A stretch of 51,193 nucleotides of DNA from Alkalihalobacillus bogoriensis ATCC BAA-922 (GTDB taxonomy: Bacteria; Bacillota; Bacilli; Bacillales; Bacillaceae_F), in NCBI RefSeq assembly GCF_000621445.1, contig NZ_JHYI01000035.1, forward strand, positions 1 through 51,193, given 5' to 3'. Numbering within the stretch: position 1 is the stretch's first letter; every line of letters starts with the position of its first letter. A program made the position numbers and the translations under genes. The notes under the pieces were generated by a model. The model was not told the origin of the DNA, did no database searches, and saw only the letters and a program-made list of their open reading frames with translations. Of the stretch, positions 7,852 to 47,446 are shown piece after piece.

Positions 7852-7853
7852 AA

Positions 7854-12406: not shown

Positions 12407-12444
12407 AGCAATCACCGCCCTATTAGTATTCTTGTTTTTGAGCA

Positions 12445-12517
12445 AAATAAAAAACCACGTTTTCTATAGTCAATTCCATCCGTTTTTTTTTGAATGGTTA
12501 ACTTAGAAACGTGGTTT
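12445..12517 (-). terminator. long-stem terminator between recombinase and tnsA
   Basis: AAACCACGTTT (12452-12462) and AAACGTGGTTT (12507-12517) are perfect inverted repeats. On the minus strand they are followed by TTTTATTTTG. The structure ends transcription from the tyrosine recombinase gene just before tnsA. The arms could alternatively be part of the transposon's right end, which is expected upstream of tnsA. Confidence 0.6.
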
Positions 12518-15827: not shown

Positions 15828-16103
15828 CTTTAGCCTCCTATCAATTACGAATGCATACTTTTTGGTTACTAACCTAAAATCATCAAATTCATTATCTATG
15901 AATATACCAAAAAAATACATAATGTTAAATAAAAATATTGGTTCAAAATCTATCATTTAATTCTGGTACATATCAAATTAAAAATGATATTTTTTTACAC
16001 TTATTTTACGTAATATCAAAATCTACAGTTTTTGTGCCAGCAATATTATTAAATTGGTATATTATGTTAGAATTGAAGTAACAAAATAACCAAAGGAGGT
16101 ATT

Positions 16104-30010: not shown

Positions 30011-30991
30011 TTGAAAGAAACTGTTTTAATTGCCGTAGATGCAGGAAAGCACACTACTAAATCACAATTACTTCATGACGGCATCATTCACACTTGCATG
30101 TTCAGAACAAAGCTACAAGAGGTCAAAAACCTTGGAATTGAATTACAAGATGATTCGTATCACATTCACTACGATGACAAGGAGTATTTGCTGGGTAATA
30201 TGGTTAGTGAAGATTACAGTAATTTTGATCTCAACAAAGCTTCCCTTCCTCACAAACTTGCCATCTACACCACTATCATCTGCTTACTTCAAAAAGCAGG
30301 ATTAGAGCCCCATCAAGTCAATCTTCGTTTAGCTGTAAATATACCCATTAACTTTTATGCTGATTTAACATTTAAGGAAAGCTATAAAAACTTCATTGAA
30401 AACAACGGAAACCTCACCTTACTTTCAGTAAATGGAAAAACCTATAATTTCCGACTTTCTAATATTACAGTTTGCTTTGAGGGCATGGGAATTGTCTACG
30501 AAAAAATGGATGAATATGATAACAAGGACTTGCAGACGATTATCATTGATATTGGTGGTCTAAACGTTAATTATTGCACCTTTAATGGTATTCAACCTGT
30601 TTTTGACACGATGACTATCAGCAACATGGGCATTAACATTTTAAAAGGAAAGATCGGGAAGAGCCTTAGTGAAAGATTCGGGATAGCTCTGTCACAAAGC
30701 GACTTAGAAAGAATAATAAAGCAAGGGTATTTAACACACAAAGGTACTATTAACATGGAAAGTAAACAACTTATCGAGCAAATCAAGAAGGAACATTTCC
30801 AACAAATTATTCAATTTGCTCAGAGTAAAGGCTATACGTTTAACAATGCAGAAATCCAATTCTCTGGTGGTGGATCATTGCTATTAAAAAATTTAATTGA
30901 AAAGGAATTTTCAAGTGCGAGCATTGTTGTTAATCCCGTTTTTGCAAATGTGCGTAGTTTCTTGAAAATTTTGGAGGTTAAAAATGCGTAA
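30011..30991 (+). CDS. parM: ParM/StbA-like actin-fold plasmid segregation protein
   Basis: The 326-aa protein has the actin ATPase motifs in order: phosphate 1 (VLIAVDAGKHTTKSQ, residues 5-19), phosphate 2 (IIIDIGGLNVNYC, about 178-190) and the adenosine loop (IQFSGGGSLLLKNL, about 285-298). Such proteins polymerise to push plasmid copies apart. The start is TTG 30011 with AAAGGAGA upstream. The stop overlaps the start of the small adaptor gene by 1 nt (TAATG). The inverted repeat upstream is the likely centromere. Confidence 0.85.
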   Translation: MKETVLIAVDAGKHTTKSQLLHDGIIHTCMFRTKLQEVKNLGIELQDDSYHIHYDDKEYLLGNMVSEDYSNFDLNKASLPHKLAIYTTIICLLQKAGLEPHQVNLRLAVNIPINFYADLTFKESYKNFIENNGNLTLLSVNGKTYNFRLSNITVCFEGMGIVYEKMDEYDNKDLQTIIIDIGGLNVNYCTFNGIQPVFDTMTISNMGINILKGKIGKSLSERFGIALSQSDLERIIKQGYLTHKGTINMESKQLIEQIKKEHFQQIIQFAQSKGYTFNNAEIQFSGGGSLLLKNLIEKEFSSASIVVNPVFANVRSFLKILEVKNA

Positions 30992-31263
30992 TGGAGAGAA
31001 TTCGTTTTACAGTTAGCTTATTACCAGAGGATACTGACATTATTGCTCATTTGGAAAAAGTAAAAGAGCATAGCACTATTAGTTTATACGTCAGAAATTT
31101 AATTCGCCAAGACATTAGTAGAGGAAGTAAAAATTCGGATGATTTAGTAGATAAAGTGATTGAAAGGTTAAGAGCTAATCATAAAGTATCATTCAACGTG
31201 AACAAAAACCTTAAGCAAGAGATTAGCAAAAAGCAGATGGAACTAATCAATTCATTGTTTTAA
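30991..31263 (+). CDS. ParR-like DNA-binding adaptor of the partition system
   Basis: The product is 90 aa. The N-terminus RIRFTVSLLPEDTDIIAHLE then STISLYVRNLIRQDI looks like a ribbon-helix-helix fold, and the C-terminal part is basic and helical. Its position directly after the ParM-like gene, with overlapping stop and start (GTAATGG), marks it as the centromere-binding adaptor. GGAGG lies 13 nt upstream, a little far, so translation may depend on coupling. Confidence 0.7.
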   Translation: MERIRFTVSLLPEDTDIIAHLEKVKEHSTISLYVRNLIRQDISRGSKNSDDLVDKVIERLRANHKVSFNVNKNLKQEISKKQMELINSLF

Positions 31264-31309: not shown

Positions 31310-33367
31310 TCAGCTAACTCCCAATGCCTTAAACACCGCATCGGTTGGATCGGAGTAAAAAACAGGCTGTACCTTCACCAACAAATCAGGAGGTACGGTT
31401 TGAAAATCCACAACAGAAGATGCTGGTATTAACACCTTCTTTGCCCCTGCATCTACACATACTTGTAAAACGTTTGCGAACTCTTCTACTTTAGAGATCG
31501 TACCACCCACTGTCATGTTTCCAATCACGACCATGCTTTCTTGAACAGGCTTTTCTAATGCTCCTGAACATAGTCCTATTAACTCCGCAATCGCAAGTTC
31601 TTCAGTTAGTCCAATCCCTTGCAAGTCACTGATATGCATGAGATAATCTTTCGTTTTCGTGCTTATAGAATTGCTTATACTTTTACTATTCGCTGTAAAG
31701 TAGCGGAATGCTGTATCTAAGCTTTCTTTAGCCCCACGATGAGAGCCCACACCAGATTTATCAAACTTACCTGTACCACTTACCACTTGATTTTCAAGCT
31801 TATAGACACCAATCATTCCAGAATTACCATGACCTACAACATATACATGACCAGGTTTTCCCATACCTTCTGGAATCAACTTGCCTCCGCCTTGTTCTGG
31901 GACAGAAACATATTCTTCATTCATGGACTCTTTATCAATATACGAGAACATGACATCGTAAAACTCCATGCCACCTATTTTCTTTAACTGCTCTTTTACT
32001 CTCCGTCTTCCTTCAAGAGCATATTGCAATACTTCTTCAATATCATCTTTTGTGTACTCTCCATGTGGATACAAGAGCTTTACTAATCCAGAAACGGTTT
32101 TACGTACAGCTACCGTATCACGTTGGTTTAAGTTATTGCCCAACTTGTAATAGCGATCAATGGAATCAGCAAATGACCGTTTCCTCATCTCTCTAAAAAA
32201 TTCAGCGATATAATCCACGATAAAACCGTATTTATCGGTAAAAAAGTCGGGCCGCATTTTCGGGATTTCCCAACCAGGCAAGTAATAGTGCATACGATCA
32301 AAAAATGCAGTATCGTTCGCCATTTCTTCTGGAAACGGAGCAAATAAGTGAGAAGTTTTAATTAAAGAATCGACACTTTGGTTAATGTTGCCGACAAAAA
32401 CCATACTTGCAGAAGCTGTTTTCTCTTCCTTCCCTCTTGCAAATGATCCTGATGCCATGTAATCTTTCATAATTTGAATGCCATCTTTGTCCTTAAATTT
32501 AATACCCGCTACTTCATCAAACGCTACACAATCCCATAGCCCAACAAGCCCTATTTTTCTTGTAGACATATTATAGAAAAGGTTGGCTACCGATGACTGT
32601 CCGCCTGAAACGAGGATACTATTTGGTGATATCTCCTTATATACATGAGATTTCCCTGTTCCCCTCGGTCCTAATTCGCACATATTATAGTTGTTTTCAA
32701 CTAAAGGAACGAGCCTTAGTAGTAAGTGCCACTTAACCTTCTCTTCTATTTGCGTTGGCTCCATTCCTGTTGAACGAATGAGTACGTCAATCCACTCTTC
32801 TTTTGTAAAGTTCTTTCTACCTTCTATAATTTCAGAGAGATCCATGTTCGGCATTTGGATTGGCTTTAAGCTACTTACACTAAAAGGATTGGAGTTTTTT
32901 ACTTCTTCATCATAGAAGTAATCAATTTTAATCATGCACCAAATTCCACCTGCCAAAAGCTTGTCAAACTCTTTAACAAAATTAGAACCGATTGGTACAC
33001 CTTTTAACCCGAGGTTAGAGAACTCTGCTTCATACGTATCAATTTTAGCATTTAACGTAACCGTTACTTTATCGATAATGGAGTATTGTCCAAGCTCTTT
33101 TATTTTCGACTTAATTTTCTCAGCTTCATCAGGTCTTACATAGTTATCAGATAAAATCTTTTTAACTCGTTCTACCCCTTCTCGAATACTTTCCTCATCA
33201 TCCGTTGCACAGTACATCCCAAGAAGGTATTCCAAAACATAGACAGGGACATTGGCTCCCTCTTTAATAAGCTTTGTTAAATCTTTTCGAACTACACGCC
33301 CAGCAAAAACATCATTCAACTTTTTATCTAAGTCCGTTGTTGGTATATCCCTTACTTGCTCTTCCAT
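31310..33367 (-). CDS. brxL: BREX protein BrxL
   Basis: This 685-aa protein has Walker A GPRGTGKS (233-240) and Walker B LWDCVAFDEVAG (277-288), inside an AAA+ core. The C-terminus (GLTEELAIAELIGLCSGALE then VGGTISKVEEFANVL then AGAKKVLIPASS) matches the Lon-protease-like domain of BrxL. BrxL is described as a DNA-binding AAA+ motor rather than an active protease. It is the last gene of the operon, 18 bp after pglZ, with GGAGGGCTG before the ATG. It completes a type 1 BREX set. Confidence 0.95.
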   Translation of the reverse strand: MEEQVRDIPTTDLDKKLNDVFAGRVVRKDLTKLIKEGANVPVYVLEYLLGMYCATDDEESIREGVERVKKILSDNYVRPDEAEKIKSKIKELGQYSIIDKVTVTLNAKIDTYEAEFSNLGLKGVPIGSNFVKEFDKLLAGGIWCMIKIDYFYDEEVKNSNPFSVSSLKPIQMPNMDLSEIIEGRKNFTKEEWIDVLIRSTGMEPTQIEEKVKWHLLLRLVPLVENNYNMCELGPRGTGKSHVYKEISPNSILVSGGQSSVANLFYNMSTRKIGLVGLWDCVAFDEVAGIKFKDKDGIQIMKDYMASGSFARGKEEKTASASMVFVGNINQSVDSLIKTSHLFAPFPEEMANDTAFFDRMHYYLPGWEIPKMRPDFFTDKYGFIVDYIAEFFREMRKRSFADSIDRYYKLGNNLNQRDTVAVRKTVSGLVKLLYPHGEYTKDDIEEVLQYALEGRRRVKEQLKKIGGMEFYDVMFSYIDKESMNEEYVSVPEQGGGKLIPEGMGKPGHVYVVGHGNSGMIGVYKLENQVVSGTGKFDKSGVGSHRGAKESLDTAFRYFTANSKSISNSISTKTKDYLMHISDLQGIGLTEELAIAELIGLCSGALEKPVQESMVVIGNMTVGGTISKVEEFANVLQVCVDAGAKKVLIPASSVVDFQTVPPDLLVKVQPVFYSDPTDAVFKALGVS

Positions 33368-33385: not shown

Positions 33386-35944
33386 CTAAAAATCAAAATC
33401 ACTGACAATACCTAAATTGATCGTAAAAGGAATTCTATCAACAGTTACCTGTGTTTCTGTATCTTTAATGACTAAGTAGTAAGTTTTACCCCTGTCATAT
33501 GGAATTGATTTTAATACAAATCGAAGCTTAAATGTACGGTCTTCTGGATTGTCAAACTCACGATCACCGATAATGGTTTCTTCATTAGAAATAACGCTTC
33601 CGTCTTCATCAGCCATATAAATGACAACCGTTCGTGCAATCATTTTTTCTTCAACTTTTTCCGTTTGGAAGAAGGATAGATTAAAAATGCTATTCGTAAT
33701 TTTTCTTGTCGTATTCGTTAGTTTAATATCAACCTTTTTAATCTCCTTAGTCCCTTTTTGTCCACTACGCTTATTTTTAAACATGAGTAGAGGCACGACA
33801 ACTTCCTGAAGACTTGCCCCACCATGAACAAAGTTCACACCAGAGCCTTGAATTTTAAAGCGGATCGTAGCATTCGGAACATAAGCTGTTAGTTGCTGTT
33901 CATTTTTAACAACGGAACTTAAATCAATGTTTAAAAGTCCTGATACTTCTCGTTTTTCCGTTGATAGCATGTATCTACGTTTCACTTCAATCGTATCCAA
34001 CTTCTCTTTTTCCATCTTATCGCTTTCTTCAAGAGCTTCTCGTTGATAGAGGAAACCATGATCTGCAGTAATATAAATGTTAACCCCACTCAAATCATCA
34101 CGTATGATTTTTACAAGGTCGTAAATTTCATTCATTGCCTTTTCAACCGCATTAAACGTATAGATTTCAGTCGAGGCTTTATCACCCATTGCATCAATCG
34201 TGTCATGATAAATATAAATCAGCTTTTTCCCTTTGAAATATTCCCTTCTGCCAGCCTTGTTCATGTTGAACACATCTTGAAAATGAATTGCTACACTTTC
34301 ACTTTCAGCTTTTGCAATAATTTTTTTACGGTTCTCAAGTCCCGATGAATCCTTGCCATCAACAAGAACTCTTGCGTTTCCATCAAAATCAATGGAACGG
34401 TATGGCAACAATGATGCCATTCCGAGCTTCGTCACTGACGGGATAACTCCTAACATTGTTTCTACTTCACAGCTACCTAACGTTTCTGCATTCAGGCGTT
34501 CGCTAATTTCCACGCCTACTTCATAACGCATAGCATCGGATATAATGACAAAGACACGTTCTCCTTTACTCATTTTAGAAGAAACAATATTTCGATAAAA
34601 ATCTTGTTGGTTACTAACTCCTGGTAGAGACCACTGTTCTCTTAGCTCCGTACTAACCGCTTGTGACCAATGGGAACTCAATTCACCTTGATACCAATTC
34701 GTATATATGTTTTCTACCATCAGTTTCAGCTTTTTTAACAACTCATTATTGGATTCCTGGTCATACGCCACATAAAACTTTCGATAATACGTATCCATGA
34801 CATAATATTTGTTCACATAGGCTTCATACATTTCGACAGCTTGTCCTTGTGGAATACGAGCTTCTTGTTCTTTATAAAATTGATGAATCTTGACTGTATA
34901 ATAGAGAGCTTCATAGATGTTTTCATACGTTTCATAGAAATGCTTGGCTCTTCTCAATTTAATGAGCTTAATGTACTCTTCATAATCTTCCAAATTTGTT
35001 GAAAGGCTGTTAGCGATGTAAATGATTATGGTTCGATCAAAATAAGGGAAAATATCGGCTTGTTTAAATGATTCGACAGAAATTTGATTTACAAGATCAG
35101 AAAGCTGGATTTCTTGCTCGATTAACTTAGCGTATTCGTTATACACTTCGTAATCCGTTTTATGATGCATCCAATGGTCAATAAAAACTAACCCATTTGT
35201 TTTGTTACGCTGTGCAATGTAATCCTTAATATTAGATAGATAGCTTTCGTCAATGGAATGACTCAATGCCGTTACGGTTAAGTGCATGAATAGCATTTTT
35301 AATGAATTTGTTTCTCTCTCGTAGCCATAATGATTAGCAACATACTTCCAAAACACTTCCGTATCAAAAAACTTCTCCAACAATTCAAGATATTTATTTT
35401 CTTCGTCATTTAACGAATCCATCAATACTGTTTTTACAATCGTTTCAAAGTCGAGTGTTTTCACATTACATAGCACTGCCATGATTATCATTTCAATCGT
35501 TTCTTCTGTAAAGGATTCTGTGCTAAACGCTTGAAACTTCTTGTAGCGATCCTTGTTGTTAAAGAACTTCTCATATTTCTTTACAACCATTCGTAATGAG
35601 GAATCAATATGTAAATCATTTAATAGTAATGAAATCTTATCAGCGTAAAACGTCTTGGAATAAAGTACCGTATCAATCACCCAATTATCCTCTACGCCAA
35701 GCTCTAAGTTTGTGTAAATTAAGTAATGAGAAGTCGGATCTTCCTCTTCTAATAGATATTTCGTATAAAAGTTATTCTTTTCCGTCAACTGATGGACTTT
35801 CACGTTATCAATGGCAATTTGGTCAATGTCCTCAGCAAATTCGTTATCTTTATCGAACCAAAAAATGATTTTACGCTGTTCACCATCATTGAGTGGTTGA
35901 CTGAAATGTTCTGTCAAAGTCGATATGACTTGGGTTAAGTTCAA
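33386..35944 (-). CDS. pglZ: BREX alkaline-phosphatase-like protein PglZ (type A)
   Basis: This is about 852 aa from TTG 35944 (RBS GAAGGTG 6 nt upstream). The product then begins NLTQVISTLTEHFSQ, like other PglZ proteins. Metal-binding motifs of the alkaline phosphatase superfamily are visible: VIISDAMRYEVG (D470), YHDTIDAMGD (about 579-588) and ITADHGFLYQ (D628, H629). PglZ is essential for BREX and acts with BrxB and PglX. An ATG at 36031 would add 29 residues, but it has no RBS and lies inside a hairpin. The gene is separated from pglX by the two-gene ATPase/nuclease insert. Confidence 0.93.
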   Translation of the reverse strand: MNLTQVISTLTEHFSQPLNDGEQRKIIFWFDKDNEFAEDIDQIAIDNVKVHQLTEKNNFYTKYLLEEEDPTSHYLIYTNLELGVEDNWVIDTVLYSKTFYADKISLLLNDLHIDSSLRMVVKKYEKFFNNKDRYKKFQAFSTESFTEETIEMIIMAVLCNVKTLDFETIVKTVLMDSLNDEENKYLELLEKFFDTEVFWKYVANHYGYERETNSLKMLFMHLTVTALSHSIDESYLSNIKDYIAQRNKTNGLVFIDHWMHHKTDYEVYNEYAKLIEQEIQLSDLVNQISVESFKQADIFPYFDRTIIIYIANSLSTNLEDYEEYIKLIKLRRAKHFYETYENIYEALYYTVKIHQFYKEQEARIPQGQAVEMYEAYVNKYYVMDTYYRKFYVAYDQESNNELLKKLKLMVENIYTNWYQGELSSHWSQAVSTELREQWSLPGVSNQQDFYRNIVSSKMSKGERVFVIISDAMRYEVGVEISERLNAETLGSCEVETMLGVIPSVTKLGMASLLPYRSIDFDGNARVLVDGKDSSGLENRKKIIAKAESESVAIHFQDVFNMNKAGRREYFKGKKLIYIYHDTIDAMGDKASTEIYTFNAVEKAMNEIYDLVKIIRDDLSGVNIYITADHGFLYQREALEESDKMEKEKLDTIEVKRRYMLSTEKREVSGLLNIDLSSVVKNEQQLTAYVPNATIRFKIQGSGVNFVHGGASLQEVVVPLLMFKNKRSGQKGTKEIKKVDIKLTNTTRKITNSIFNLSFFQTEKVEEKMIARTVVIYMADEDGSVISNEETIIGDREFDNPEDRTFKLRFVLKSIPYDRGKTYYLVIKDTETQVTVDRIPFTINLGIVSDFDF

Positions 35945-36015
35945 ATAATTCACCTTCTTTCCATTTATCCATCGATATAGACTGAATAAATCGAGTAACT
36001 TATTTTTTTGCAAAG

Positions 36016-36047
36016 AAGAAGCAACCCCCATGTAGGACTTGCTTCTT
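36016..36047. other. hairpin between nested module and pglZ
   Basis: AAGAAGCAA (36016-36024) and TTGCTTCTT (36039-36047) form a 9-bp stem in the 110-bp gap between the nuclease-like gene and pglZ. It has only a weak T-run on the minus strand, so it may be a partial terminator or attenuator that lowers pglZ expression, or a scar of module insertion. Confidence 0.45.
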
Positions 36048-36054
36048 TATCTTT

Positions 36055-36570
36055 TTAAATATTTTCTACGATAGATTTTATTTCGATTTGGGAGAATTGC
36101 TCTCTCCACTCATCAATATTATACACTGCAAAACTTGATAAAATTTTTCTTTTCAATCTATCATCTACAAGGGATAGTGGTAATTGTTTTCCTATTTTCA
36201 AAACAAGTTGTTTTCTTATTTTTTTATCAATAATAGGATGCTCAATTAACAAAACGTATGTGATAGGTTTTTCTTCTTGATTGCCTCCACACGCCCAAAA
36301 TAAAAGAAGACTATCGTAAAATTTCCGAGCTATCTTTTTATAAAAATCTTCATGTTTCATTTTTTTAACCATAGCGTCAGGGGCTTTGGCTCCTTGAATA
36401 TTTGCATTTTTATATTCAAGGAAAACAATCTCCCCCTCAATCTCAGTAATAAAATCAACATCGCTTAGCATAGTAGATTTTGTTAGTTCTTGTACTTGCC
36501 ATACATAAGGTGCATTAGAAAAATCAAATTGAAATTGTTTATTCTCATCTAACAATACTTTTCCTGTCAT
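36055..36570 (-). CDS. PD-(D/E)XK nuclease-like protein of the nested module
   Basis: The product is 171 aa. Residues 37-54 (DVDFITEIEGEIVFLEYK) give D39 and E52-x-K54, a PD-(D/E)XK-type nuclease core. A later helical part (KIARKFYDSLLLFWACGG) and strand (ITYVLLIEHP) fit this fold. It starts 2 bp after the stop of the ATPase gene, so both are one translational unit. It lies inside the BREX operon between pglX and pglZ, where neither gene is part of core type 1 BREX. It may be the effector of a small back-up defence controlled by the ATPase. Confidence 0.65.
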   Translation of the reverse strand: MTGKVLLDENKQFQFDFSNAPYVWQVQELTKSTMLSDVDFITEIEGEIVFLEYKNANIQGAKAPDAMVKKMKHEDFYKKIARKFYDSLLLFWACGGNQEEKPITYVLLIEHPIIDKKIRKQLVLKIGKQLPLSLVDDRLKRKILSSFAVYNIDEWREQFSQIEIKSIVENI

Positions 36571-36572
36571 GC

Positions 36573-37577
36573 TTACACCTCAAAATTACTTTCAATCACT
36601 TGATCTAATAATTCAGTGTCTGCTTCAATGATTGGATTGTTAGGTAGTTCGCCAAAATAATCGCTTGAATCTGCTTGGACACCATCGTTTGTCTTATACA
36701 AATGATGAAACTTTACCTTATGATCTTTCTTACGTTTAATTTCAAAATACTTTGCTAAATTATAATTGTGCGTAGCAATGAAAACCTGTACTCCACTTCT
36801 CTGTAATTCAAGTAAAATATCCACTAAAACAGGAATTAACTCAGGGTTAATATTTGCTTCAGGTTCATCCCAAAAGAGTATTGTTCCTTCCTCAATCAAA
36901 CCATTACGAATTAACTTCCATAACAGACCAAACTTTCTTAAACCTTCTGCCTCGATTTGAAATTCAATTTTCTTCCCATTTGATTTAACAACGTAAAAAC
37001 TACTTTTTTCATGAATGACGTGCCCATCTATTACTTCGGAAATCTTCTGAAGAGTCATTTCATTTATTGGAGTAATTGCTCTTGTTTCAGGAAGTTCAGC
37101 ATTTGTAATAATATCTGCATACGTTTTATCAAACGGCAACGAATATTTGTTGTACATTGCTAAAAAACCTTGAGCATGGGACAACATTTCCTTTGCAGGT
37201 ATAAATACATTTTTTACTTTAAAATCAATGTCAGAATAACTTGCTCCATCTCCTGCTAACTTCATTCCTTCATGTTTAATAATAACGTGCGAAACGTAAC
37301 TATTTTTAGAAAAGTATGCAGTCACATGTGTTTTCTTATTTCTATCCCGTTGATCCCTTACTAAATTCATTGGATTTACTTTAAAAAATGGTTGAGATAT
37401 GTCAAAGATGTCTTCTCCTTTGTTATTTACACTTTCACACAACGCATATAACGATTTAAGTAAGTGTGTTTTTCCCGTTCCATTTGTACCAATGATAATA
37501 TTTACACCTGATGAAAAGTCGATTTCCACATTTTCAAATACAGTAAAATTTTCGATACAAACTTTTTTGATTGTCAT
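36573..37577 (-). CDS. ABC/OLD-like AAA ATPase of the nested module
   Basis: The 334-aa protein has an SMC/ABC-like ATPase with no long coiled coil: Walker A GTNGTGKT (30-37), a signature-like segment AEGLRKFGLLW (210-220), Walker B ILFWDEPEANINPEL (233-247) and a switch histidine in FIATHNYNL (H270). This is the AAA_15/AAA_21 type found in OLD, Gabija, PARIS and similar anti-phage systems, where the ATPase senses a phage product and releases a nuclease partner. The RBS GGGAGTG precedes the ATG. It follows pglX by 65 bp and is read with the BREX operon. Confidence 0.85.
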   Translation of the reverse strand: MTIKKVCIENFTVFENVEIDFSSGVNIIIGTNGTGKTHLLKSLYALCESVNNKGEDIFDISQPFFKVNPMNLVRDQRDRNKKTHVTAYFSKNSYVSHVIIKHEGMKLAGDGASYSDIDFKVKNVFIPAKEMLSHAQGFLAMYNKYSLPFDKTYADIITNAELPETRAITPINEMTLQKISEVIDGHVIHEKSSFYVVKSNGKKIEFQIEAEGLRKFGLLWKLIRNGLIEEGTILFWDEPEANINPELIPVLVDILLELQRSGVQVFIATHNYNLAKYFEIKRKKDHKVKFHHLYKTNDGVQADSSDYFGELPNNPIIEADTELLDQVIESNFEV

Positions 37578-37642: not shown

Positions 37643-40600
37643 CTAAATCTTTGCTACTAATCCTTTAAATTTCTCATAGTTCACAACTACTCCGTCATCT
37701 AAGTCAATTTCAATTTGCATATCTGCCATATGGTGTAATACTTCATCATAACTTTTGAGCTCTTCAATCTTTTTCTCTAACGTCTTCAATTCCTTTTTCG
37801 CATCACTGATTTCTTTTGCAGTAGAGTCACCTTCAATAATTGTTAGCAAATCTCTTTTTTCAGCATCTAAGCGAATTTGGTATTCATGTAAATAATCCGT
37901 TCGTATTCTCGATAGCGTTGTTTTATCATAGCGGTGCATATAGATTAAACAGTTAAATGCTTTCTGTTTACCAGAAGTAAATAACCAATAAATTGGGCGT
38001 TTCTTATACGTTTGAACATGGTCTTTATAAAAATCATTTAAGAAATAACGTCTAATCGTTTCTTTAGCTGTTTCTCCTTTTTTCTTACCAAGAGTGTCTG
38101 CTATGAAATCAAGGTTTTCTGATAAAGTTTCCTCACCAAATGTAACTTTAACAAAGTCATTAAATCTTGAAACAATGTCATCTTCAAAGTAGGCTCCAGG
38201 TAGAATTGGCAGGATGTTATCTTGATCTGCTGGGAAAGTTTGATATTTAGTTGGATCAAATTCCCCACCAGCATAAATCAGACCTTCTTCGTCTAAGGAA
38301 TAGCGGCCAAACATACAGCCGATGGCGTAGGAAATACAGCTTTTAATATCTCCTTCTATATCTGGTTTACGAATTTTAATATCTTCATCCTCAACCCTTG
38401 GGTTTAGATCATTATGCATTCCATACAGCTCTATAAAATGTGTATTTAATGATTCTTCATTATTTTTTAATTTTATAAATTGTGACTCTAAAAAGGCTTT
38501 CCACTTATTAAACACATTTTCAAGTGTAGACTTTTCTGTTTCTATAACGAGTAAAGGATGCTTTTTAAAACCTAAAGATGTTTCATACGAATTCCAATCT
38601 TGTTTTGAAATATTTATATTTTCTGCAACTACGGCTTTCACCTTATCCATATCCCCTTTACTTTCTTCAATAAATGGGATTCTTCTAATATCAGATATAT
38701 TGGTATTAAGTGTTGGATTTAAAGCTCTTATTATTGTTTCGTGAACTTTACTATTTAATAGTCCGATAAAATATAGTGTATCATCAACATTTTTAATAAA
38801 TATAGAAGGGGCCGCAAGATTAAAAGTTGAATCTTCTTCTAAGATTCTTACAGAAAATTTCCCGCTGGTTATTAAAGTCCATGTAATACCTTTTCTAAAC
38901 CAAATATATTCAGGTGCAATTCTTGCAACGGAATCATTTTTATAATGTGCCCTTGCATCCTCACTCCAATTTATAACAGTTTCAATGTTTCCATACCACT
39001 TTCTAAATGAACCACCCTTGGCATGAATAACCCACTTTTTACCTTCCCCTATTTTAGTGTGATCCACTTCCCATAAGAACCTCAAGTATTTATCATTATT
39101 GCCTGTTTTTGTCTGCCCATCTGATATTGAAATATCATAAAGTGTCCGAGAGTTAAATAAATTTGTAACCTTTTTATTTAGCCAATAAGCTAATATATAT
39201 TGAGGAATACTTTTGAAATCTACTTGATCGTATGTATACCTATAAGGGACAGAACTATTATAAACAGCTTCTTTTGCTTTATTTTTTTTCTTTTCAGAAG
39301 ATCTTTCATCAACCAACCTAAGATATATTCCTTTTTTTCCAGGAATGTTTGTATTTCTCAATACAAATGCAGTTGATTGCACAACCTCACCACCAATTTC
39401 TTCAAAAGCTCTTGGACCTAAGTGCAACATTGATTTAATTATTTTTTTATTGATAATCTTTTCTCTTAACTTTTCAAAACTGTTCAAGAACATCCATGAA
39501 TGCTGATTGACAGTTGCATAAAACCCTTCAATTTTTATGTAATGATCAATTTCCATAAAACAGGCAAAAAGGTCAGATTTAGAGTCAGGATAATTCCCCC
39601 TTAAAAAGTCAGATAACTCTCTATTCATACTTCCATAGCCCATATAAGGGGGATTTGTTACTAATATTTCATATTGATTCGCCATAATTTCAGTTTGTTT
39701 TAACAAGTTGGGTATTATATTTAATGCCTTCTTCTTTATCTCTTCATCTAATAAATTTTCAGCTGGATTGTTCTGTATGTAATCTAATCTATCTTTTAAA
39801 AAACCTAAGTCGAACTTTTCTACTTTAAGCAAAGATCCAATCGTTTTTGCATCTTTAAACTGCTCAATAAATTCTTTAATAGTATTAAATTGTTCTCCTT
39901 CACGTTCACCTGCAATATAAGCAATATCATCTTCATCAAGGCTATTCGTTTCCTGAATTGAAGCTAAGTTCAGTTGCAATCCTTCTCTCTCAATGCTCCT
40001 GAAGAAACGCTTATTATACTCCAATGCCTTCATTACCACTGAGAAACAAGCAAGTTGATAGGCTCTGTCATCAATATCTAAGCCATAAAGGTTATTTTCA
40101 ATAATTAACCTCGGTATTTCCCTATCCATATACCCACATTTACTATATATTTCAAAGAGAACATCAAACATATAAACAAGAATATGCCCACTGCCCATTG
40201 CTGGATCGAAACATTTAATATCCTCGACTTTTAAATCTCCATTGATATACGGAGCTAACTTCTCTTCGAAGTCTAAATCCTGATTAGGATTTTCAAGATA
40301 GAACTCCCAATTCGAAAGTAAGTCACGATGCTCTGGATGCGATTCAATCCAATACCGCCCTAATGAGTTTTGCACCATATAACGTACTATCCAATCAGGT
40401 GTGAATAGCTGAGTTGCAAATGGAATTTCCTCTGCCTTATATTTAGATTTCTGCTTAAATACTCTTTCCTTTTCCTCAGCAATGTAAAATTGATATAGCC
40501 AGCCGATGATTTCAATTTTGTTCCAATCTTCTTCTGCTATTTTCTCTGTATTTGTCATTTCCCTAAGAAATGAATCCTTTGCTAATAGCCCCTCTGGAAA

Positions 40601-41131
40601 AAGTATCTCTGTAAAGTCATCAATCTTCTCAAACATAAAGGGCATATAACGATTTAAGTCATTACAATGCTTAATAATCAAATACTTAAACAGTTCTTCT
40701 GACTCATTATTTACCTTCATCTCATAAACAAGCTCTTTATCAAGGTCTAAATCAAGAGAGAGTGCTTCTTTCATCATATCAGGTTCAGCACTATCAGCAT
40801 TACTTGAAGAAAATACTCTAACTTTTGTAGGGAGATAATTGTTGACCTCCATAAAACGTAATGCTGTAAAACGGTTAAACCAAGTGTAAGCCACTTCTTC
40901 CATTACTCTGCTAAAACTTGTTTGGTTAATTCGATCAATTAGTCGTTCCCTTTGTACTTTTTCACTCTTTGAAAGCTGTCTACCATCGATAAAGATGGCA
41001 TCTGAGCTTTCGATTTCTGCCTTTGTAATTTTATCTGCTGAAATTCCTATTTTTAATGCTTTTGCTTCTACTTTTTTGAGTAGCTCACGTCTGGCACTTG
41101 TCGCAAAGTTTTTCAATGCTGTTTTGTTCAT
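37643..41131 (-). CDS. pglX: BREX adenine-specific DNA methyltransferase PglX
   Basis: This is a 1162-aa protein. The amino-methyltransferase motifs are DPAMGSGH (309-316, AdoMet binding) and NPPY (493-496, catalytic). The N-terminus NKTALKNFATSARRELLKKV is the standard PglX opening. The middle and C-terminal parts carry target recognition, and there is a helical end (KEISDAKKELKTLEKKIEEL). PglX methylates one strand of a non-palindromic site, marking self DNA so that BREX spares it. AAGAAGGTG lies upstream of the ATG. No phase-variable homopolymer is obvious. Confidence 0.95.
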   Translation of the reverse strand: MNKTALKNFATSARRELLKKVEAKALKIGISADKITKAEIESSDAIFIDGRQLSKSEKVQRERLIDRINQTSFSRVMEEVAYTWFNRFTALRFMEVNNYLPTKVRVFSSSNADSAEPDMMKEALSLDLDLDKELVYEMKVNNESEELFKYLIIKHCNDLNRYMPFMFEKIDDFTEILFPEGLLAKDSFLREMTNTEKIAEEDWNKIEIIGWLYQFYIAEEKERVFKQKSKYKAEEIPFATQLFTPDWIVRYMVQNSLGRYWIESHPEHRDLLSNWEFYLENPNQDLDFEEKLAPYINGDLKVEDIKCFDPAMGSGHILVYMFDVLFEIYSKCGYMDREIPRLIIENNLYGLDIDDRAYQLACFSVVMKALEYNKRFFRSIEREGLQLNLASIQETNSLDEDDIAYIAGEREGEQFNTIKEFIEQFKDAKTIGSLLKVEKFDLGFLKDRLDYIQNNPAENLLDEEIKKKALNIIPNLLKQTEIMANQYEILVTNPPYMGYGSMNRELSDFLRGNYPDSKSDLFACFMEIDHYIKIEGFYATVNQHSWMFLNSFEKLREKIINKKIIKSMLHLGPRAFEEIGGEVVQSTAFVLRNTNIPGKKGIYLRLVDERSSEKKKNKAKEAVYNSSVPYRYTYDQVDFKSIPQYILAYWLNKKVTNLFNSRTLYDISISDGQTKTGNNDKYLRFLWEVDHTKIGEGKKWVIHAKGGSFRKWYGNIETVINWSEDARAHYKNDSVARIAPEYIWFRKGITWTLITSGKFSVRILEEDSTFNLAAPSIFIKNVDDTLYFIGLLNSKVHETIIRALNPTLNTNISDIRRIPFIEESKGDMDKVKAVVAENINISKQDWNSYETSLGFKKHPLLVIETEKSTLENVFNKWKAFLESQFIKLKNNEESLNTHFIELYGMHNDLNPRVEDEDIKIRKPDIEGDIKSCISYAIGCMFGRYSLDEEGLIYAGGEFDPTKYQTFPADQDNILPILPGAYFEDDIVSRFNDFVKVTFGEETLSENLDFIADTLGKKKGETAKETIRRYFLNDFYKDHVQTYKKRPIYWLFTSGKQKAFNCLIYMHRYDKTTLSRIRTDYLHEYQIRLDAEKRDLLTIIEGDSTAKEISDAKKELKTLEKKIEELKSYDEVLHHMADMQIEIDLDDGVVVNYEKFKGLVAKI

Positions 41132-41146
41132 TTTGTTTTCACCTTC

Positions 41147-44100
41147 TTAATCCAAGAACTCGATATGTTTATTGGATTTGATAATTTCTTTTAGTTTGTT
41201 TGATAACGTATTCACGAATTGGTCTACATCTTCTTCTGACTGTAACGTCTTAACAGCAAGTAATTCGGATACTTTAACCTTTTGCTTTTGGATCGTTGCT
41301 ACAGGTGGTTGTGTTTCAATCACGCCTGTACCTTGTTCTTCTTGCTTTCTTCTTTGCCACTCTTTGATTTCTCGATCAATCACACGTTCATATTTCTCTT
41401 TAAAGCTCGTACTTTGAGAAATCGTTGCATCGACTTTATAAATGTCTACGAAGCTTTCAATGTTTGTTGTGAGATCTTTGTAATATTGGTCAACTCTTTG
41501 CTTCGTTTCTGTTGATACACCATACTGCTTAGCAAGAATAGCTAAGTTTTCATAATCAGCTTGTAATTTGCTCTTCGCATTTGTTTTCTTCTCTTCAAGA
41601 ACAGCGTTAATTGTTTCTTCCACTTTATTTACAAGCTCTGGAATGTCCTTAATCTTCTTATACGGAATTGGATCTTTCACAATGTCTGTTAGCTTCTGGA
41701 TGAAGTCCTCAGATCCATCACTCATGACATACATCTTATTTTCTTCGTATTTTTTAAGAGCTTGTAATCCTTCATCAAAAATACGTTTCTGATCTGTTCC
41801 AAAGAAACTCTTTACATAGACAATATCCTCTTCCCAATCTAATAGATCATCTTCCATCTCTTTTAATTTTGTAAAGAAAGAAGCATTGTCTAAGCCTTTA
41901 TGGAATTCACCGAAATACTCTAATCCTTTATCGAGTAAGCTCAATCCAGGGTATTTACGCCCTTCATAACGAGCTTTTAAAGCATTGATTTCAGAGATTT
42001 GACGTTCCATTAGTGTACGAATATCTTTCACCAATCCATCTTCATCATCCGCCAAATCGGTTTTATTAAAGACTTCCTTACAAATACTTTTAGCTACTCG
42101 AATTAACGATTCATCGACTTTTACTCGTTTTAAAACAATCGCTTTATCCGCTTCTTGTGTTTTCGTTAGGACAGTAATAATTTTATTTACCCCATCTTCT
42201 GGCTCTAAATATTGTGCATTGTAGCGAATGCGAATGCGTTGTTCTTTTAGTAAATGTGCAATAATTCCTGCGATATCGAGTGGTCTCCAGCCGTATGGCT
42301 TGTCATTGAAACGATCAAGAAGTGGTTTTACTCGAACTTGTTTCTTAATCTCATCCTGTAAGCCTATAAAGTCAGATACTTCTTTGATCGCAAGTGGATT
42401 GGGGATTTGTTTCATGTCCTCACCAAGCGTTAATTGCTCGTCTTTTACAGCTAAAATATCAATGAGATCTCGCTCCGTATCTAAGTGCGTTTTTACATAC
42501 GCTAATTTCGTATATACGTTTTCAACTAACGATTCGAGAGCCGTATTAAACTTCTCTTTCACCGATGAACCTTTAATATCAACACGATCACCGTTTACAT
42601 AAAAGACGGATGATTTAATCGCATCTTCCAACAAATCTCGTACCCTTCTTCTACGTTCTCTTGCCTCAGCTTGTTTATTGTTTAAGATATTTTGGATACT
42701 CTCAGGTAGTTGTGTGATATTACGCTTTTTGCGGTATTCTTCAATTTGTAGAACTTCCCGCATTTCTTCAATATACGTATCACTACCACCTAATTTTACA
42801 ATCAGTTCATTTGTTCCAGATGACATCATCATCAGCTCTTGCTCTGACTTCTCATAGTGATCGGATAGTGGCGAAAGAATGTTGATACCGATGGAAGCCG
42901 TTTGGTTTTTATAATCTTTCTCATCCATTTTTTGTCGGTAGGAAAAATCATACACTTTACCGTAGCGATAACGTGTACCTTGGTATAAATCTTCAAAAAT
43001 ATAGTTAGCAAGTTCTCGTTTTACGGTTTCTTCCTCAATACTTACTGCCTTTATTTCTCGATTCACATCTTGCTCATCATCGGTTAGGAAGATATAGTAA
43101 TCACCATTTTTTTGAATTAACGTTTGTGAAATGAGCTTGCGAAGTGAACTTTTGATTTTTTCCTTTAATTGTAATTTATCTTCATCAATATTCGTTACCA
43201 TAAGCGTAGCAATATTATCAATATTGGCTGGTAGCTCTTTAATGTATTTGATCATAAATAATACTTTCAGAAGCTCCATGTTAAATGCATCATCTTTTAA
43301 AGCTGGGTTTTCATACGCTCCTTCAATTACCCTTGAGATCGTAGGGTTTAAAAACTCCTTAATCGTATCGTAGAAGGCATAGAATGGAATTAAACTTCCT
43401 TCTGCTGAATCCTTATAGCGTAGACCCGCCTCTTTAAAAGCAGATAACATTGAACGTTCCCCTTCAGATAAGTGCTTACCACTTGAACCATGTTTACGCA
43501 CCTGCTCAAATACATTTTGTAAGAGCTTGAATTGATAAGGTACAAATGGATATACGTCTGCAAATTCTTGTTCATTGTCATAACCACGAAGATCTGCTGT
43601 GCTTTCTTTGAAGCTAATTAAATTCTTCAGTATCGCACTTTTCTCAGGGAAATACACTTTAAGCTTGTCATTTACAAAGTCTTTCTTCAGTAAGATACGC
43701 TTCTTAATGACCTCATCAACAGATATCGATGATAGAGAAAGCCTTGTATCGAAGCGGCCTTGAATACGAGAGAAGTCATCACCTTTTACCTTAATGATGG
43801 TGTCAATACTTTCTTGTGAAGTAACCATAATCCATACCTTACCTTCACAATGCGTACCTAAATCTTCAGCAACAGTTTGTAAATTAAGCATTAAATTACG
43901 GCTATCCCCTATGTACTGCCCAATTTCGTCTACTAAAAAGATAAGGTGAAAGTTATCGCCCTTCTGCTTAATGTATTCTTTTACGTCTTTAGCAAACTTT
44001 TCAATGCTAATTTCAAAGTTGTTAACTCCGTTTTCAAACCAATTTCGTGCTGATTCCTCTGTCATTTCCGTTACTTTTGTTAATGCTCCAATGACATAAT

Positions 44101-44713
44101 CCGCATCAAAATAAAAAGTGTTTCTCCTCTCTATCCACTCTTCTCCTGCCAACGCTTTAAACTCTTGCTTAAATGCTTCGTAAACCCCTTTTGCATCTAA
44201 ATACTTCTCCATTTCAGCCACACCAGGAATGTCACCATAATAACCTCTATGCTCATAGAATACCTTCATAAACACTCGTAGTATCGCATCTTCTTTTGAC
44301 TTACTATCTAAGGAGCTTTTCGAATCGATATTGAAAAGTATCACTTCAGTATCCACATTGGCTGTACGTTTCATATTCGCAACAATAATTGGATCTTCAA
44401 TTTTCTCATCAAAAAATTCGAGTGCCTTTTTCCCTTGTACTTCTTTATTTTCAAGTAAGTACGCTAAAATTTTTAAAAAGTGTGATTTACCCGATCCAAA
44501 GAAACCTGAAATCCAAACACCCATTTTATCCGTTGTACCGTCAATTCCTTTTTGATAGTTTTCATAAAACTTCGATAGGTGTTTGTTCAACTCTCTTGTC
44601 ACAACATACTCATCTAACTCTTGATAAATATGTTTTTCATCGGTCTGAGCCACTTTAATAACGCCTTTTATGTCACGTTCAATGTCTTTTTGAAACATAT
44701 CTTTAATGATCAT
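41147..44713 (-). CDS. brxC: BREX P-loop ATPase BrxC
   Basis: This 1188-aa protein starts with IIKDMFQKDIERDIKGVIKV, typical of BrxC. Walker A is GFFGSGKS (70-77); a second conserved block HLIFLVDEIGQYIGDSRNLM carries a Walker B. Long helical regions fill the C-terminal half (QRRKQEEQGTGVIETQPP near the end). BrxC is a large ATPase distantly related to the ORC/Cdc6 AAA+ proteins and is essential for BREX. RBS GAGGGGG precedes the ATG. It is 15 bp after brxB and 15 bp before pglX. Confidence 0.95.
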   Translation of the reverse strand: MIIKDMFQKDIERDIKGVIKVAQTDEKHIYQELDEYVVTRELNKHLSKFYENYQKGIDGTTDKMGVWISGFFGSGKSHFLKILAYLLENKEVQGKKALEFFDEKIEDPIIVANMKRTANVDTEVILFNIDSKSSLDSKSKEDAILRVFMKVFYEHRGYYGDIPGVAEMEKYLDAKGVYEAFKQEFKALAGEEWIERRNTFYFDADYVIGALTKVTEMTEESARNWFENGVNNFEISIEKFAKDVKEYIKQKGDNFHLIFLVDEIGQYIGDSRNLMLNLQTVAEDLGTHCEGKVWIMVTSQESIDTIIKVKGDDFSRIQGRFDTRLSLSSISVDEVIKKRILLKKDFVNDKLKVYFPEKSAILKNLISFKESTADLRGYDNEQEFADVYPFVPYQFKLLQNVFEQVRKHGSSGKHLSEGERSMLSAFKEAGLRYKDSAEGSLIPFYAFYDTIKEFLNPTISRVIEGAYENPALKDDAFNMELLKVLFMIKYIKELPANIDNIATLMVTNIDEDKLQLKEKIKSSLRKLISQTLIQKNGDYYIFLTDDEQDVNREIKAVSIEEETVKRELANYIFEDLYQGTRYRYGKVYDFSYRQKMDEKDYKNQTASIGINILSPLSDHYEKSEQELMMMSSGTNELIVKLGGSDTYIEEMREVLQIEEYRKKRNITQLPESIQNILNNKQAEARERRRRVRDLLEDAIKSSVFYVNGDRVDIKGSSVKEKFNTALESLVENVYTKLAYVKTHLDTERDLIDILAVKDEQLTLGEDMKQIPNPLAIKEVSDFIGLQDEIKKQVRVKPLLDRFNDKPYGWRPLDIAGIIAHLLKEQRIRIRYNAQYLEPEDGVNKIITVLTKTQEADKAIVLKRVKVDESLIRVAKSICKEVFNKTDLADDEDGLVKDIRTLMERQISEINALKARYEGRKYPGLSLLDKGLEYFGEFHKGLDNASFFTKLKEMEDDLLDWEEDIVYVKSFFGTDQKRIFDEGLQALKKYEENKMYVMSDGSEDFIQKLTDIVKDPIPYKKIKDIPELVNKVEETINAVLEEKKTNAKSKLQADYENLAILAKQYGVSTETKQRVDQYYKDLTTNIESFVDIYKVDATISQSTSFKEKYERVIDREIKEWQRRKQEEQGTGVIETQPPVATIQKQKVKVSELLAVKTLQSEEDVDQFVNTLSNKLKEIIKSNKHIEFLD

Positions 44714-44728
44714 TTCTTATCCCCCTCA

Positions 44729-45295
44729 CTAATCCACTAAGCGAAATGCTCGGTAATAATTATCATCTTTAAATTTTCCAAACAATTGAAGTGATTGCCC
44801 ATCATATTGACCAGGGAAAAACATGATCACAGGTGTTTTATCTATCACTTCTTGTAAATTATTAAGTATCGTATGCGACCTGACAAATGGATAAACCTTA
44901 CCTATTCCTGTTAAAAAGACAACATTATGAGCCCCTATTTGTTCTTTAATTTTTTTCAGGAAAATATCAGGTTTTGCAAAGGTTGTCATTGCTTTAAACA
45001 ACGCTTCTTTTCCTTGCTTTTCTTCCATATCAAAAATACGATTAAATATGTTCCGTTCTTTTGCAATCTCTAACAGCATTTTATATAAATCAAACTCGAT
45101 GATTTTGCGGTTTGTACCCTCATAGCTGAACTCTTTCTTAATATGGTTAATATAGTCTCGAACAACGAGTTCCCCTTCTGGTTCATAGTCAAAAACATAA
45201 AAGCTGATTTCATTACCAAGACCATGTCCTTGAATAAATTTGTCATCTCGTATTTTCGGAATAATTTTATCCAGCCTTGCATTCAAGTTACCCAT
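44729..45295 (-). CDS. brxB: BREX protein BrxB (DUF1788)
   Basis: This 188-aa protein has the DUF1788 pattern: ARLDKIIPKIRDDKF near the start, ISFYVFDYEPEGELVVRDYI, then VVFLTGIGKVYPFVRSHTIL and a C-terminal MFFPGQYDGQSLQLFGKF. BrxB is a small essential BREX component that links PglZ and other subunits. It lies 10 bp after brxA on the same strand. Confidence 0.93.
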   Translation of the reverse strand: MGNLNARLDKIIPKIRDDKFIQGHGLGNEISFYVFDYEPEGELVVRDYINHIKKEFSYEGTNRKIIEFDLYKMLLEIAKERNIFNRIFDMEEKQGKEALFKAMTTFAKPDIFLKKIKEQIGAHNVVFLTGIGKVYPFVRSHTILNNLQEVIDKTPVIMFFPGQYDGQSLQLFGKFKDDNYYRAFRLVD

Positions 45296-45305: not shown

Positions 45306-45902
45306 TCACTCCCCCATCGCACGCACATAATCATGCTCACCAATAAAAAACAGATGTTCTTTTACTCGTTCATCGATTAACAAGCGACTTAATTCACCTG
45401 TTTCCTTATTTTTAACGATCCCTATTTCAAACAACAACTTCATGAATACCTGTTTTAACTTATCAACCGTTTTTTCTGTCCAACTTGCCACTTTCTCGTC
45501 TTGTTCTGACTTATATGTAAAGTACGTATTCATATCTTTTTTCTCCAGCAAATAGTCATTAGCTTGAAGCTTTTCACGAATTACCTCATCCATAAATTCA
45601 AAAAACAAACGATCCGTTTTCATAATGGCATAAAGGTTAATCATTTTACCTACTTCCAAAGGTTCTTCCAATACCATTTTTCTTAATGTTTCATCCAACG
45701 TGTTAGCTCGCCTTAATACAGAAGGCAAACTACGTTTTGCACTGTTTTGCACTTTGTATTGAAAGTAGTTTTCCTCGAAAACTTTTGACCTGATTTCTTT
45801 ATCTGATAAGCCTTGCTCTTTAAGTCGCAAAACTTGCTTTAACTCAAACAATAAAAACGATGCTCCTGTTAAAGATGTACTATATAATAGTTCTTTACTC
45901 AT
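45306..45902 (-). CDS. brxA: BREX protein BrxA (DUF1819)
   Basis: This 198-aa helical protein opens with SKELLYSTSLTGASFLLFEL and continues with the DUF1819 pattern (NYFQYKVQNSAKRSLPSVLR, then LYAIMKTDRLFFEFMDEVI). BrxA folds like the RNA-binding antitermination protein NusB and binds DNA. It is the first core BREX gene, 15 bp after a small leader gene. Confidence 0.93.
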   Translation of the reverse strand: MSKELLYSTSLTGASFLLFELKQVLRLKEQGLSDKEIRSKVFEENYFQYKVQNSAKRSLPSVLRRANTLDETLRKMVLEEPLEVGKMINLYAIMKTDRLFFEFMDEVIREKLQANDYLLEKKDMNTYFTYKSEQDEKVASWTEKTVDKLKQVFMKLLFEIGIVKNKETGELSRLLIDERVKEHLFFIGEHDYVRAMGE

Positions 45903-45917: not shown

Positions 45918-46181
45918 TTATTGTTGACTATTTGTAATAGTATGACCATTCAAAGTTAGTATTCTCTCCACAACTTCAAGCCTTCTCTTACCACATTGTT
46001 GCCTTAATACTGTCGTAAATTCATTTTCCTTTAGAACTTTACTTTTATTGTTGATGAAAAGTTCATTAACTTTCGTAATTAGTTCATTTTCATCAAGTCC
46101 ATTTTCCCAATACGCATCGACAATTCCGTTTAATGCTACAGCAAGGTCACGTTGCGTTTTATAAAATAGTTTCACTTCCAT
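45918..46181 (-). CDS. small leader gene of the BREX operon (TIGR04540-like)
   Basis: This 87-aa protein (KLFYKTQRDLAVALNGIVDA, then CGKRRLEVVERIL) looks like the TIGR04540 family of small helical proteins known from Clostridium and Bacillus. GAGGTGA precedes the ATG, and the gene leads the operon directly before brxA. Its role in BREX is unknown; it might regulate the operon. The family match is from memory of the pattern. Confidence 0.65.
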   Translation of the reverse strand: MEVKLFYKTQRDLAVALNGIVDAYWENGLDENELITKVNELFINNKSKVLKENEFTTVLRQQCGKRRLEVVERILTLNGHTITNSQQ

Positions 46182-46342: not shown

Positions 46343-47446
46343 CTACCTATACAAATAATAATCCGCTCTATCTTCTATTGCTATTCGGTAACTGTCTTCC
46401 GTCTCAATATAATTTTCTATTTCTGCTGACATTATGCCACATTCATAATCTAAATCACCATCGGTATATGACTTTCTCACTTCTATTCCTTCAGCCTTAA
46501 TTTCTTTGACTCTAAAAATGTACGGACTGAAAAAGAGCAAAAACCGTTCAAACAGCTTAGCAATAATTTCAAATGTTTCTTCATACGATTCAGGTGGTGC
46601 AAAATAAATCCCAATTTTTCTATCGACAAAGGTAATGTTACTGTTAATTCTTTCTTTCATTTGTCTTTTTAAAGTTTGAAACTTCTCATACATAGCAATC
46701 TTTGAAATATCGAAGTAGAGTTCAACAAAAGCTAAGCCGTTGCGATTTTTAACTGCACATCTATAATTTAACCCTGCTACCCCTGCACCTACATTTAATA
46801 TATGGTCGTGGATGTACGCCTTTTTGTTATAGTAAAAGTTTAAAAAATATGGCATCCTTTCTCTTAAAACACATAACAATGCTTTCTTAACTTCTTCAAT
46901 ACGTGAATAATCGTATTCATATTTTGTAATTTGAGCTTGCCCTATGTAAAAGTCAGGCAATTGTTGTAATGAATGATGCACTGTTAGAATTTTGTCTACC
47001 TCTTTTATACGATACAACTCATCAAATACTTCTAATTTATAAAGCTCATTCAACTCTATCAAAAGTGGCATAACTTGTGGATCAATTTGCAAAGCATAGA
47101 AATCAATATAACGTTTGTTTTTCGCTCTAAGCCATTCTTCTATCTCTCTATTATGATTATCTTCAAATTCAGATGCAATCCAGACAATAACACCTTCAGG
47201 TTGAATTTCAATCATTTCCTTAATACGTTCTAAGTAACGAGTATTAGACTTCGTAATTTGTACTTCTATTAAAATATTAAGTCTTCGCTTTCTATCAACA
47301 GCACTAATATCTGTTTTCTTTCCACCTGCTCGATTTTCCAATTCGATATTTGCTAATTGCAATTGCATTGCATCTTCTAAAATACTCGGATACTTGATTA
47401 ACGCCCAGCAAAAGATTGCTTCCTTGTTCGAACCATTCTTACTCAC
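46343..47446 (-). CDS. PD-(D/E)XK nuclease-like protein (DUF4268-type)
   Basis: This 367-aa protein has an N-terminal nuclease-like core: IELENRAGGKKTDISAVD (D46), then LNILIEVQITKSNTRYLERI (E61-V-Q63), then GVIVWIASEFEDNHNREIEE. This is the endonuclease-like pattern joined to a C-terminal DUF4268-like domain (FVELYFDISKIAMYEKFQTL). Such proteins are frequent in defence islands. It lies directly upstream of BREX but has its own terminator. Function is not known. Confidence 0.65.
   Translation of the reverse strand: MSKNGSNKEAIFCWALIKYPSILEDAMQLQLANIELENRAGGKKTDISAVDRKRRLNILIEVQITKSNTRYLERIKEMIEIQPEGVIVWIASEFEDNHNREIEEWLRAKNKRYIDFYALQIDPQVMPLLIELNELYKLEVFDELYRIKEVDKILTVHHSLQQLPDFYIGQAQITKYEYDYSRIEEVKKALLCVLRERMPYFLNFYYNKKAYIHDHILNVGAGVAGLNYRCAVKNRNGLAFVELYFDISKIAMYEKFQTLKRQMKERINSNITFVDRKIGIYFAPPESYEETFEIIAKLFERFLLFFSPYIFRVKEIKAEGIEVRKSYTDGDLDYECGIMSAEIENYIETEDSYRIAIEDRADYYLYR

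Follow-up and report, generated by a model that had tools for sequence, protein, structure and literature searches.

Why does a complete type 1 bacteriophage exclusion (BREX) operon carry two genes from outside its core set? The question is raised by a 51,193-nucleotide stretch of Alkalihalobacillus bogoriensis ATCC BAA-922 (contig NZ_JHYI01000035.1; hereafter the window). Its minus strand holds genes in the order brxA-brxB-brxC-pglX-A-B-pglZ-brxL (Pfam, PADLOC and NCBI-type profile matches), where A and B are the two additions. A preliminary description of this DNA had reported the core order with two extra genes between pglX and pglZ, and the open reading frames (ORFs) lie exactly where it placed them (Table 1). 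It could not, however, match the pair to any system it could name, and here PADLOC supplies a name, HEC-02. We find that the pair belongs to a mobile defence module that has been catalogued before but little studied, and that, judged from the tree of its ATPase, it has arrived in BREX more than once.

Both proteins match dedicated PADLOC profiles near full length: A matches HEC-02A (PDLC04213, E-value 8.2e-117, residues 1-332) and B matches HEC-02B (PDLC04217, E-value 1.7e-81, residues 1-167). The two genes are adjacent, as in HEC-02, and lie 2 bp apart; what distinguishes the window pair is its nesting in a type 1 BREX operon between pglX and pglZ. Since the PADLOC name exists, we dropped the reading of an unnamed system. 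A further PADLOC model, PDLC04146, is also named HEC-02B yet hits A (3e-53), which reflects an irregularity in how the library names its models. The HEC candidates reportedly go back to a 2024 preprint by Payne and co-workers. A name search of the open literature found no functional test of HEC-02. HEC stands for Hma-embedded candidate, a class found through “guilt by embedding” (PMC12988326; this and the other PMC sources are cited from portions of their text), and the portion of that source used here has “Hma-embedded” but not “HEC-02.”

What kind of protein is A? Pfam places it with the AAA_15/AAA_21 ATPases. Its Walker A motif is GTNGTGKT, the motif FWDEPE occupies residues 235-240, and T269-H270 supplies the switch histidine; G30, N32, G35, K36, W236-E240 and H270 are invariant across an alignment of 60 rows. 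The preliminary description had called A an OLD/PARIS-like ATPase. The ATPase call and all three motifs stand, while “PARIS-like” proves loose: the HEC-02A profile scores 388 bits against 72 bits for AriA (E-value 1.3e-20), the GajA, PtuA and AbiLi models are also far weaker than HEC-02A, and the folds point to PtuA. Among the fold matches listed, the full-length ones are mostly PtuA chains (14 of 17 PtuA rows run to residue 334), and the SMC/Rad50 rows stop at residues 303-328. GajA appears once, at rank 16; AriA is not among the listed Foldseek and VIA matches, an absence that excludes nothing. No C-terminal Toprim domain is seen in A: the protein has 334 amino acids, its Pfam matches include no Toprim model, and the HEC-02A and most PtuA matches end at residues 332-334.

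B is probably a nuclease of the PD-(D/E)XK type, to judge from its motifs and its predicted fold. The preliminary description had proposed such a core around D39, E52 and K54, and these residues are indeed conserved: in 84 aligned rows position 39 is D or E in 83, E52 and K54 are present in 83 each, and K83 is present in all 84. In the 76 rows with 12-63% identity to the window protein, E52, K54 and K83 are invariant. The D...(D/E)xK motif of the PD-(D/E)XK superfamily is thus kept, and such conservation argues for selection on an active site. The predicted structure (AlphaFold2, mean predicted local distance difference test score 94.3) resembles, in VIA-align, many restriction-type DNA endonucleases (EcoO109I, BstEII, FokI, BspD6I) and also Can2 and Cdn1. 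The possibility that the 171-residue protein lacks a nuclease fold, raised in the preliminary description, thus looks unlikely, as B combines a nuclease-like fold resemblance with the motifs. Direct sequence comparison returned little. Against the PDB, a single-sequence search gave a best E-value of 1, and a 76-row profile gave a best E-value of 0.1 to an unrelated chain, with a Holliday junction resolvase only at 1.5. Pfam had no match at all in B and assigned no nuclease family to the 76 members of its alignment, and neither PHROGs nor the phage records searched with B gave a match.

Do A and B form one unit? Among 96 loci holding A (the window counted twice and one further duplicate included; 80 of the set are genome loci), B lies directly behind A in 86. 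The remaining ten comprise four with pieces of B (L017, L075, L076, L079; locus numbers are ours), three in which the sequence ends 0-226 bp past the A gene (L019, L084, L091) and three with no B seen (L018, L021, L078). The distances of A and B are correlated as well (80 pairs, Mantel r 0.64; none of 999 permutations was as high). Searches with B alone recover A at six of seven genome matches outside the window; the seventh, which is the weakest (E-value 4.8e-5), is a frame that looks TetR-like. In 72,556 plasmid records B has two matches, both beside A and both within BREX at the brxC-pglX junction. Because the dedicated profiles match near full length and B follows A at so many loci, the adjacency is far beyond chance. 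The data support A and B as one unit, which the preliminary description had read from their spacing.

A number of characterized systems resemble the pair in part. In Septu and in the PtuA-PtuB pair of retron Ec78 the ATPase is PtuA-like, as A is; B differs, with PD-(D/E)XK motifs and fold resemblance and no match to any PtuB or HNH model in Pfam, PADLOC or other profile libraries. The PtuB of Septu, by contrast, is an HNH nuclease. PARIS (AriA-AriB) shares the ATPase class, and PARIS-type modules also occur in BREX, and AriB cuts host tRNAs (PMC12839542). However, A is far nearer to HEC-02A, and B has no Toprim or AriB (DUF4435) match in Pfam or PADLOC; we reject membership in PARIS for want of a Toprim partner. 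OLD and the GajA of Gabija are set aside on a similar ground, since their ATPase is fused to a C-terminal Toprim domain that A lacks. A further parallel is BrxU, an independent defence gene nested in the type 1 BREX of pEFER at the brxC-pglX junction (PMC8565348), which is a junction that HEC-02 uses elsewhere. BrxU differs in being a single DUF262-DUF1524 protein (a GmrSD-type type IV enzyme) that cuts modified DNA.

The same architecture and setting are found in the OLD-ABC modules with PD-(D/E)XK partners described in BREX, which we know from their general description rather than from a locus list. For BREX or BREX-related loci, OLD-ABC ATPases with nucleases are counted in 1242 taxa or more, and an assemblage of 594 taxa has an HNH, PD-(D/E)XK or PIN partner in place of Toprim (PMC12839542; Rakesh and Krishnan 2026). 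The same paper, of January 2026, proposes such modules as back-up effectors, so the idea of a back-up to BREX, also put forward in the preliminary description, was already in print in general form.

Where else is the pair found? We looked outside BREX, as the preliminary description had suggested. Type 1 BREX surrounds the pair at 7 of the 80 genome loci, BREX genes of the PglXI/BrxH/PglZ type stand beside it at 3, 3 have a piece of a BREX gene and 67 have no BREX-like ORF; BREX was detected by phmmer with a few query proteins, and many of the BREX-free loci are on short contigs. When only the 33 loci flanked by 8 kb or more on each side are counted, 6 are in BREX, 2 have a BREX-like piece and 25 have none. 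The data thus support the existence of the pair apart from BREX. The pieces are a 66 amino acid PglX-like ORF whose end abuts the start of A (L048:9804-10004, with no other BREX-like ORF within 10 kb on either side), a 183 amino acid PglXI-like ORF upstream of the pair (L069) and a weak BrxH-like ORF (L036). Possibly the pair of L048 has outlived its BREX operon.

Within BREX the pair occupies more than one junction, two of them in type 1 BREX. The pglX-pglZ junction hosts it in the window, L024, L027, L030, L037 and L054, and the brxC-pglX junction in L010, L011, L063, L064 and L094-L097, with an additional 572 amino acid ORF between brxC and A in L063. The gene order is PglXI-[A-B]-BrxH-PglZ in L093, and in L083 (52-8593) HEC-01A, a 219 amino acid ORF, the pair, BrxH and PglZ follow one another, so that two embedded candidates stand in tandem. 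The plasmid BREX of L010 (4101-19795) has two nested cargos, HEC-02 at brxC-pglX and a YhcG-type PDDEXK protein at pglX-pglZ. Outside BREX, the pair lies behind hsdM-hsdS of type I restriction-modification (R-M) operons in two loci; the order is hsdM-hsdS-[A-B]-hsdR in L014, and four ORFs separate the pair from hsdR in L012. In L016 a Wadjet JetC gene lies upstream. Of 142 same-strand neighbours listed for non-BREX pairs, 88 were scanned, and no PADLOC family occurred in more than 2 of these 88 at an E-value of 1e-20. The contigs of L094-L097 are catalogued as viral, and three of these four BREX operons have two pglX genes.

Does the pair belong to this BREX subtype as a fixed component, a possibility that the preliminary description had allowed for? 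We examined 299 genomes of the same order (presumably Bacillales); counting that of the window, 26 encode a PglZ relative. One of the 25 others (L107) is cut by a contig end, leaving 24 in which pglX is visible upstream of pglZ; the view covers 1.5 kb upstream of pglZ. In none of the 24 does the pair lie between these two genes: 19 lack any additional ORF there and 5 have a different one, namely Abi_C (L103), a YhgA-like protein (L105), Fic/PDC-S04 (L113) and two ORFs of 198 and 282 amino acids without a Pfam or PADLOC match (L100, L101), which are candidates for new nested defence genes. A Mesobacillus plasmid BREX operon, whose PglZ is 69.5% identical to that of the window, lacks the pair throughout. 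We therefore take the pair to be an insertion into a variable slot, and, on the evidence of the pglX-pglZ junction, we reject it as a constant component of BREX. In related BREX operons this junction serves as a cargo slot, which may be empty or hold HEC-02, Fic, Abi_C, YhgA-like or unassigned ORFs.

Has this slot been entered more than once? In a tree of 93 A proteins, built by a quick method with support from the Shimodaira-Hasegawa-like approximate likelihood ratio test (SH-aLRT) only, the window protein groups (7 rows, SH-aLRT 97) with two Clostridium copies from type I R-M operons, three copies with no BREX gene detected (two of them on short stretches) and the copy next to Wadjet. It stands away from the Clostridia copies at pglX-pglZ. 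With groups fixed by gene context, the approximately unbiased (AU) test rejects a tree that unites the six pglX-pglZ members (p-AU 3.5e-45) as well as one that unites all 18 BREX members (p-AU 1.4e-63). The rejection of the former indicates that the pglX-pglZ slot has been entered more than once. The context label changes 11 times on the tree, which is only an estimate, because, for rows on short contigs, the label “other” may hide a BREX operon beyond the contig end (e.g., L042, 351 bp upstream) and because L036, L048 and L069 carry the same label despite their BREX-like pieces. On this tree, more than one arrival of HEC-02 in BREX is clear, and the exact count is limited by the quick method and the short contigs.

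How might the pair work? We consider it likely that it is a self-contained two-gene HEC-02 defence cassette inserted between pglX and pglZ, Septu-like in design with a minimal PD-(D/E)XK nuclease replacing HNH. To judge from its fold, A would dimerise on ATP like PtuA and the Rad50/SMC heads, and it would hold and restrain B. An infection cue, perhaps a product of the phage, DNA ends or a change in nucleotide pools, would shift the ATP state of A, and the changed A would license B to cleave, through D39, E52 and K54 with K83, a nucleic acid that is most likely DNA. Cleavage would either block phage growth or kill the infected cell. Placed within the operon, the pair would be expressed together with BREX and add a second line of defence that differs from it in mechanism. 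That A controls B in such an A-B complex is suggested by Septu, which needs both its ATPase and its HNH motifs (PMC13096335).

Alternatively, the pair could be a guard of BREX, which would sense phage inhibition of BREX (by a DNA mimic such as Ocr, or by an inhibitor of BrxC) and then trigger suicide in the manner of PARIS. Such a role has been proposed for OLD-ABC modules in BREX, and PARIS detects Ocr (PMC12839542). The repeated, independent arrival at BREX junctions agrees with it, and the PglX-like piece just upstream of A in L048 fits a pair left by its BREX operon. The pieces in L036, L048 and L069 also bring the BREX-free loci down to 67 of 80, which weighs slightly against the self-contained cassette. 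However, those 67 loci remain (many on short contigs), and the nearest relatives of the window pair lie in type I R-M operons, beside a Wadjet gene or where no BREX gene was detected. We regard a dedicated BREX guard as unlikely, and since the pair so often occurs where no BREX gene was detected, inhibition of BREX is unlikely to be its only trigger. A broader idea, which we rate as rather improbable, is a portable Septu-like switch, its HNH effector swapped for a minimal PD-(D/E)XK nuclease, that repeatedly and independently enters fixed junctions (pglX-pglZ, brxC-pglX, PglXI-BrxH, behind hsdS) as a general restriction guard. If so, the pair would not be a BREX part and would fire when a phage inhibits the neighbouring methylation-dependent restriction machine, whatever its type.

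The target of B is a separate matter. Related ATPase-nuclease pairs attack tRNA, as Septu of EcB88 does with tRNA-Tyr (PMC13096335) and AriB with host tRNAs (PMC12839542), and Can2 and Cdn1 are among the VIA rows of B, so that an RNase effector is possible, if doubtful. The many resemblances to restriction-type DNA endonucleases argue for a DNase instead. DNA is also the usual substrate of PD-(D/E)XK enzymes. It seems quite improbable that B is an inactive nuclease serving as a nucleotide or DNA sensor, or that the two form a toxin-antitoxin module where the sole role of A is to restrain B: the A-B layout would also suit a toxin with its guard, but the nearly invariant E52, K54 and K83 point to selection on an active site. 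Least credible, and very improbable in our judgement, is that A and B are accessory BREX subunits constant in this lineage. They share strand and operon with BREX at gaps of 65, 2 and 23 bp (pglX-A, A-B and B-annotated pglZ), yet the pair is absent from the slot in all assessable relatives and from the Mesobacillus operon, and it is common where BREX is undetected.

Read as a self-contained cassette, the pair is a clean case of defence within defence, in which the same two-gene unit has entered BREX more than once; the surprise is limited, because the case otherwise agrees with published ideas. New here are the HEC-02 assignment, the test of residue conservation, the resemblance of A to PtuA over its full length, the comparison with empty sites and the finding that a single origin is rejected, none of which was found for HEC-02 in a word search of the open literature. 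If the nuclease is confirmed, the PtuA/OLD-type ATPase platform would accept interchangeable effectors (HNH, Toprim, PD-(D/E)XK).

Table 1. The BREX operon of the window with the inserted pair, in gene order
Feature	Position	Strand	Description	Support
brxA	45306..45902	-		Pfam BrxA, E 1.5e-56
brxB	44729..45295	-		Pfam BrxB, E 2.1e-46
brxC	41147..44713	-		NF033441, 1338 bits
pglX	37643..41131	-	BREX-1 adenine methyltransferase; upstream border of insertion	NF033452, 1394 bits
A	36573..37577	-	334 aa; ABC/AAA_15-AAA_21 ATPase, HEC-02A	Walker A 30-37, Walker B/D-loop 235-245, His270
B	36055..36570	-	171 aa; probable PD-(D/E)XK-type nuclease, HEC-02B	D39, E52, K54, K83, acidic residue 8
stem-loop	36012..36054	-	directly behind B stop codon, before pglZ	folding z -4.24
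pglZ	33386..36031	-	BREX-1 type A; downstream border of insertion	TIGR02687, 730 bits
brxL	31310..33367	-		TIGR02653, 1176 bits

Nothing points to a promoter of the pair's own: the scan found 10 promoter-like sites, where shuffled sequence would give 8.6. The stem-loop behind B does not look like an intrinsic terminator in a terminator scan (0 found, 0.5 expected). A strong RNA hairpin between pglX and pglZ also occurs in all three of the relatives that were folded, which lack the pair (L099, L102, L109; z -3.8 to -6.7). Its sequence differs between the window and these three, and the pair is inserted upstream of it; the hairpin before pglZ may be a processing or attenuation site. The annotated pglZ start at 36031 is probably too early, and the true start would be near the TTG at 35944, behind AAGAAGGTG, because most PglZ relatives align only from about residue 13-44 of the window protein and the annotated Mesobacillus pglZ begins with a TTG codon that matches residue 30.

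Directly upstream of brxA lies an 87 amino acid ORF (45918-46181, minus strand), and in the Mesobacillus operon a small ORF assigned to the TIGR04540 family occupies the same place. Just upstream of BREX, a 367 amino acid protein (46343-47446, minus strand) has a sub-threshold DUF4268 match and a weak PADLOC match to PDC-S11 (E-value 2e-17). On the opposite strand beside BREX (30011-31263, plus strand) are an actin-like (ParM-type) gene and a 90 amino acid ORF, which suggest a plasmid-like segregation locus. The same contig carries a Tn7-like cluster (6037-12445, minus strand) of TnsD/TniQ, a TniB-like ATPase, a Mu-type (TnsB-like) transposase and TnsA. Adjoining it (13339-15956, minus strand) are a 520 amino acid AAA protein similar to PDC-M37B (E-value 4e-193) and a 352 amino acid protein similar to PDC-M37A (E-value 2e-88), both PADLOC candidates.
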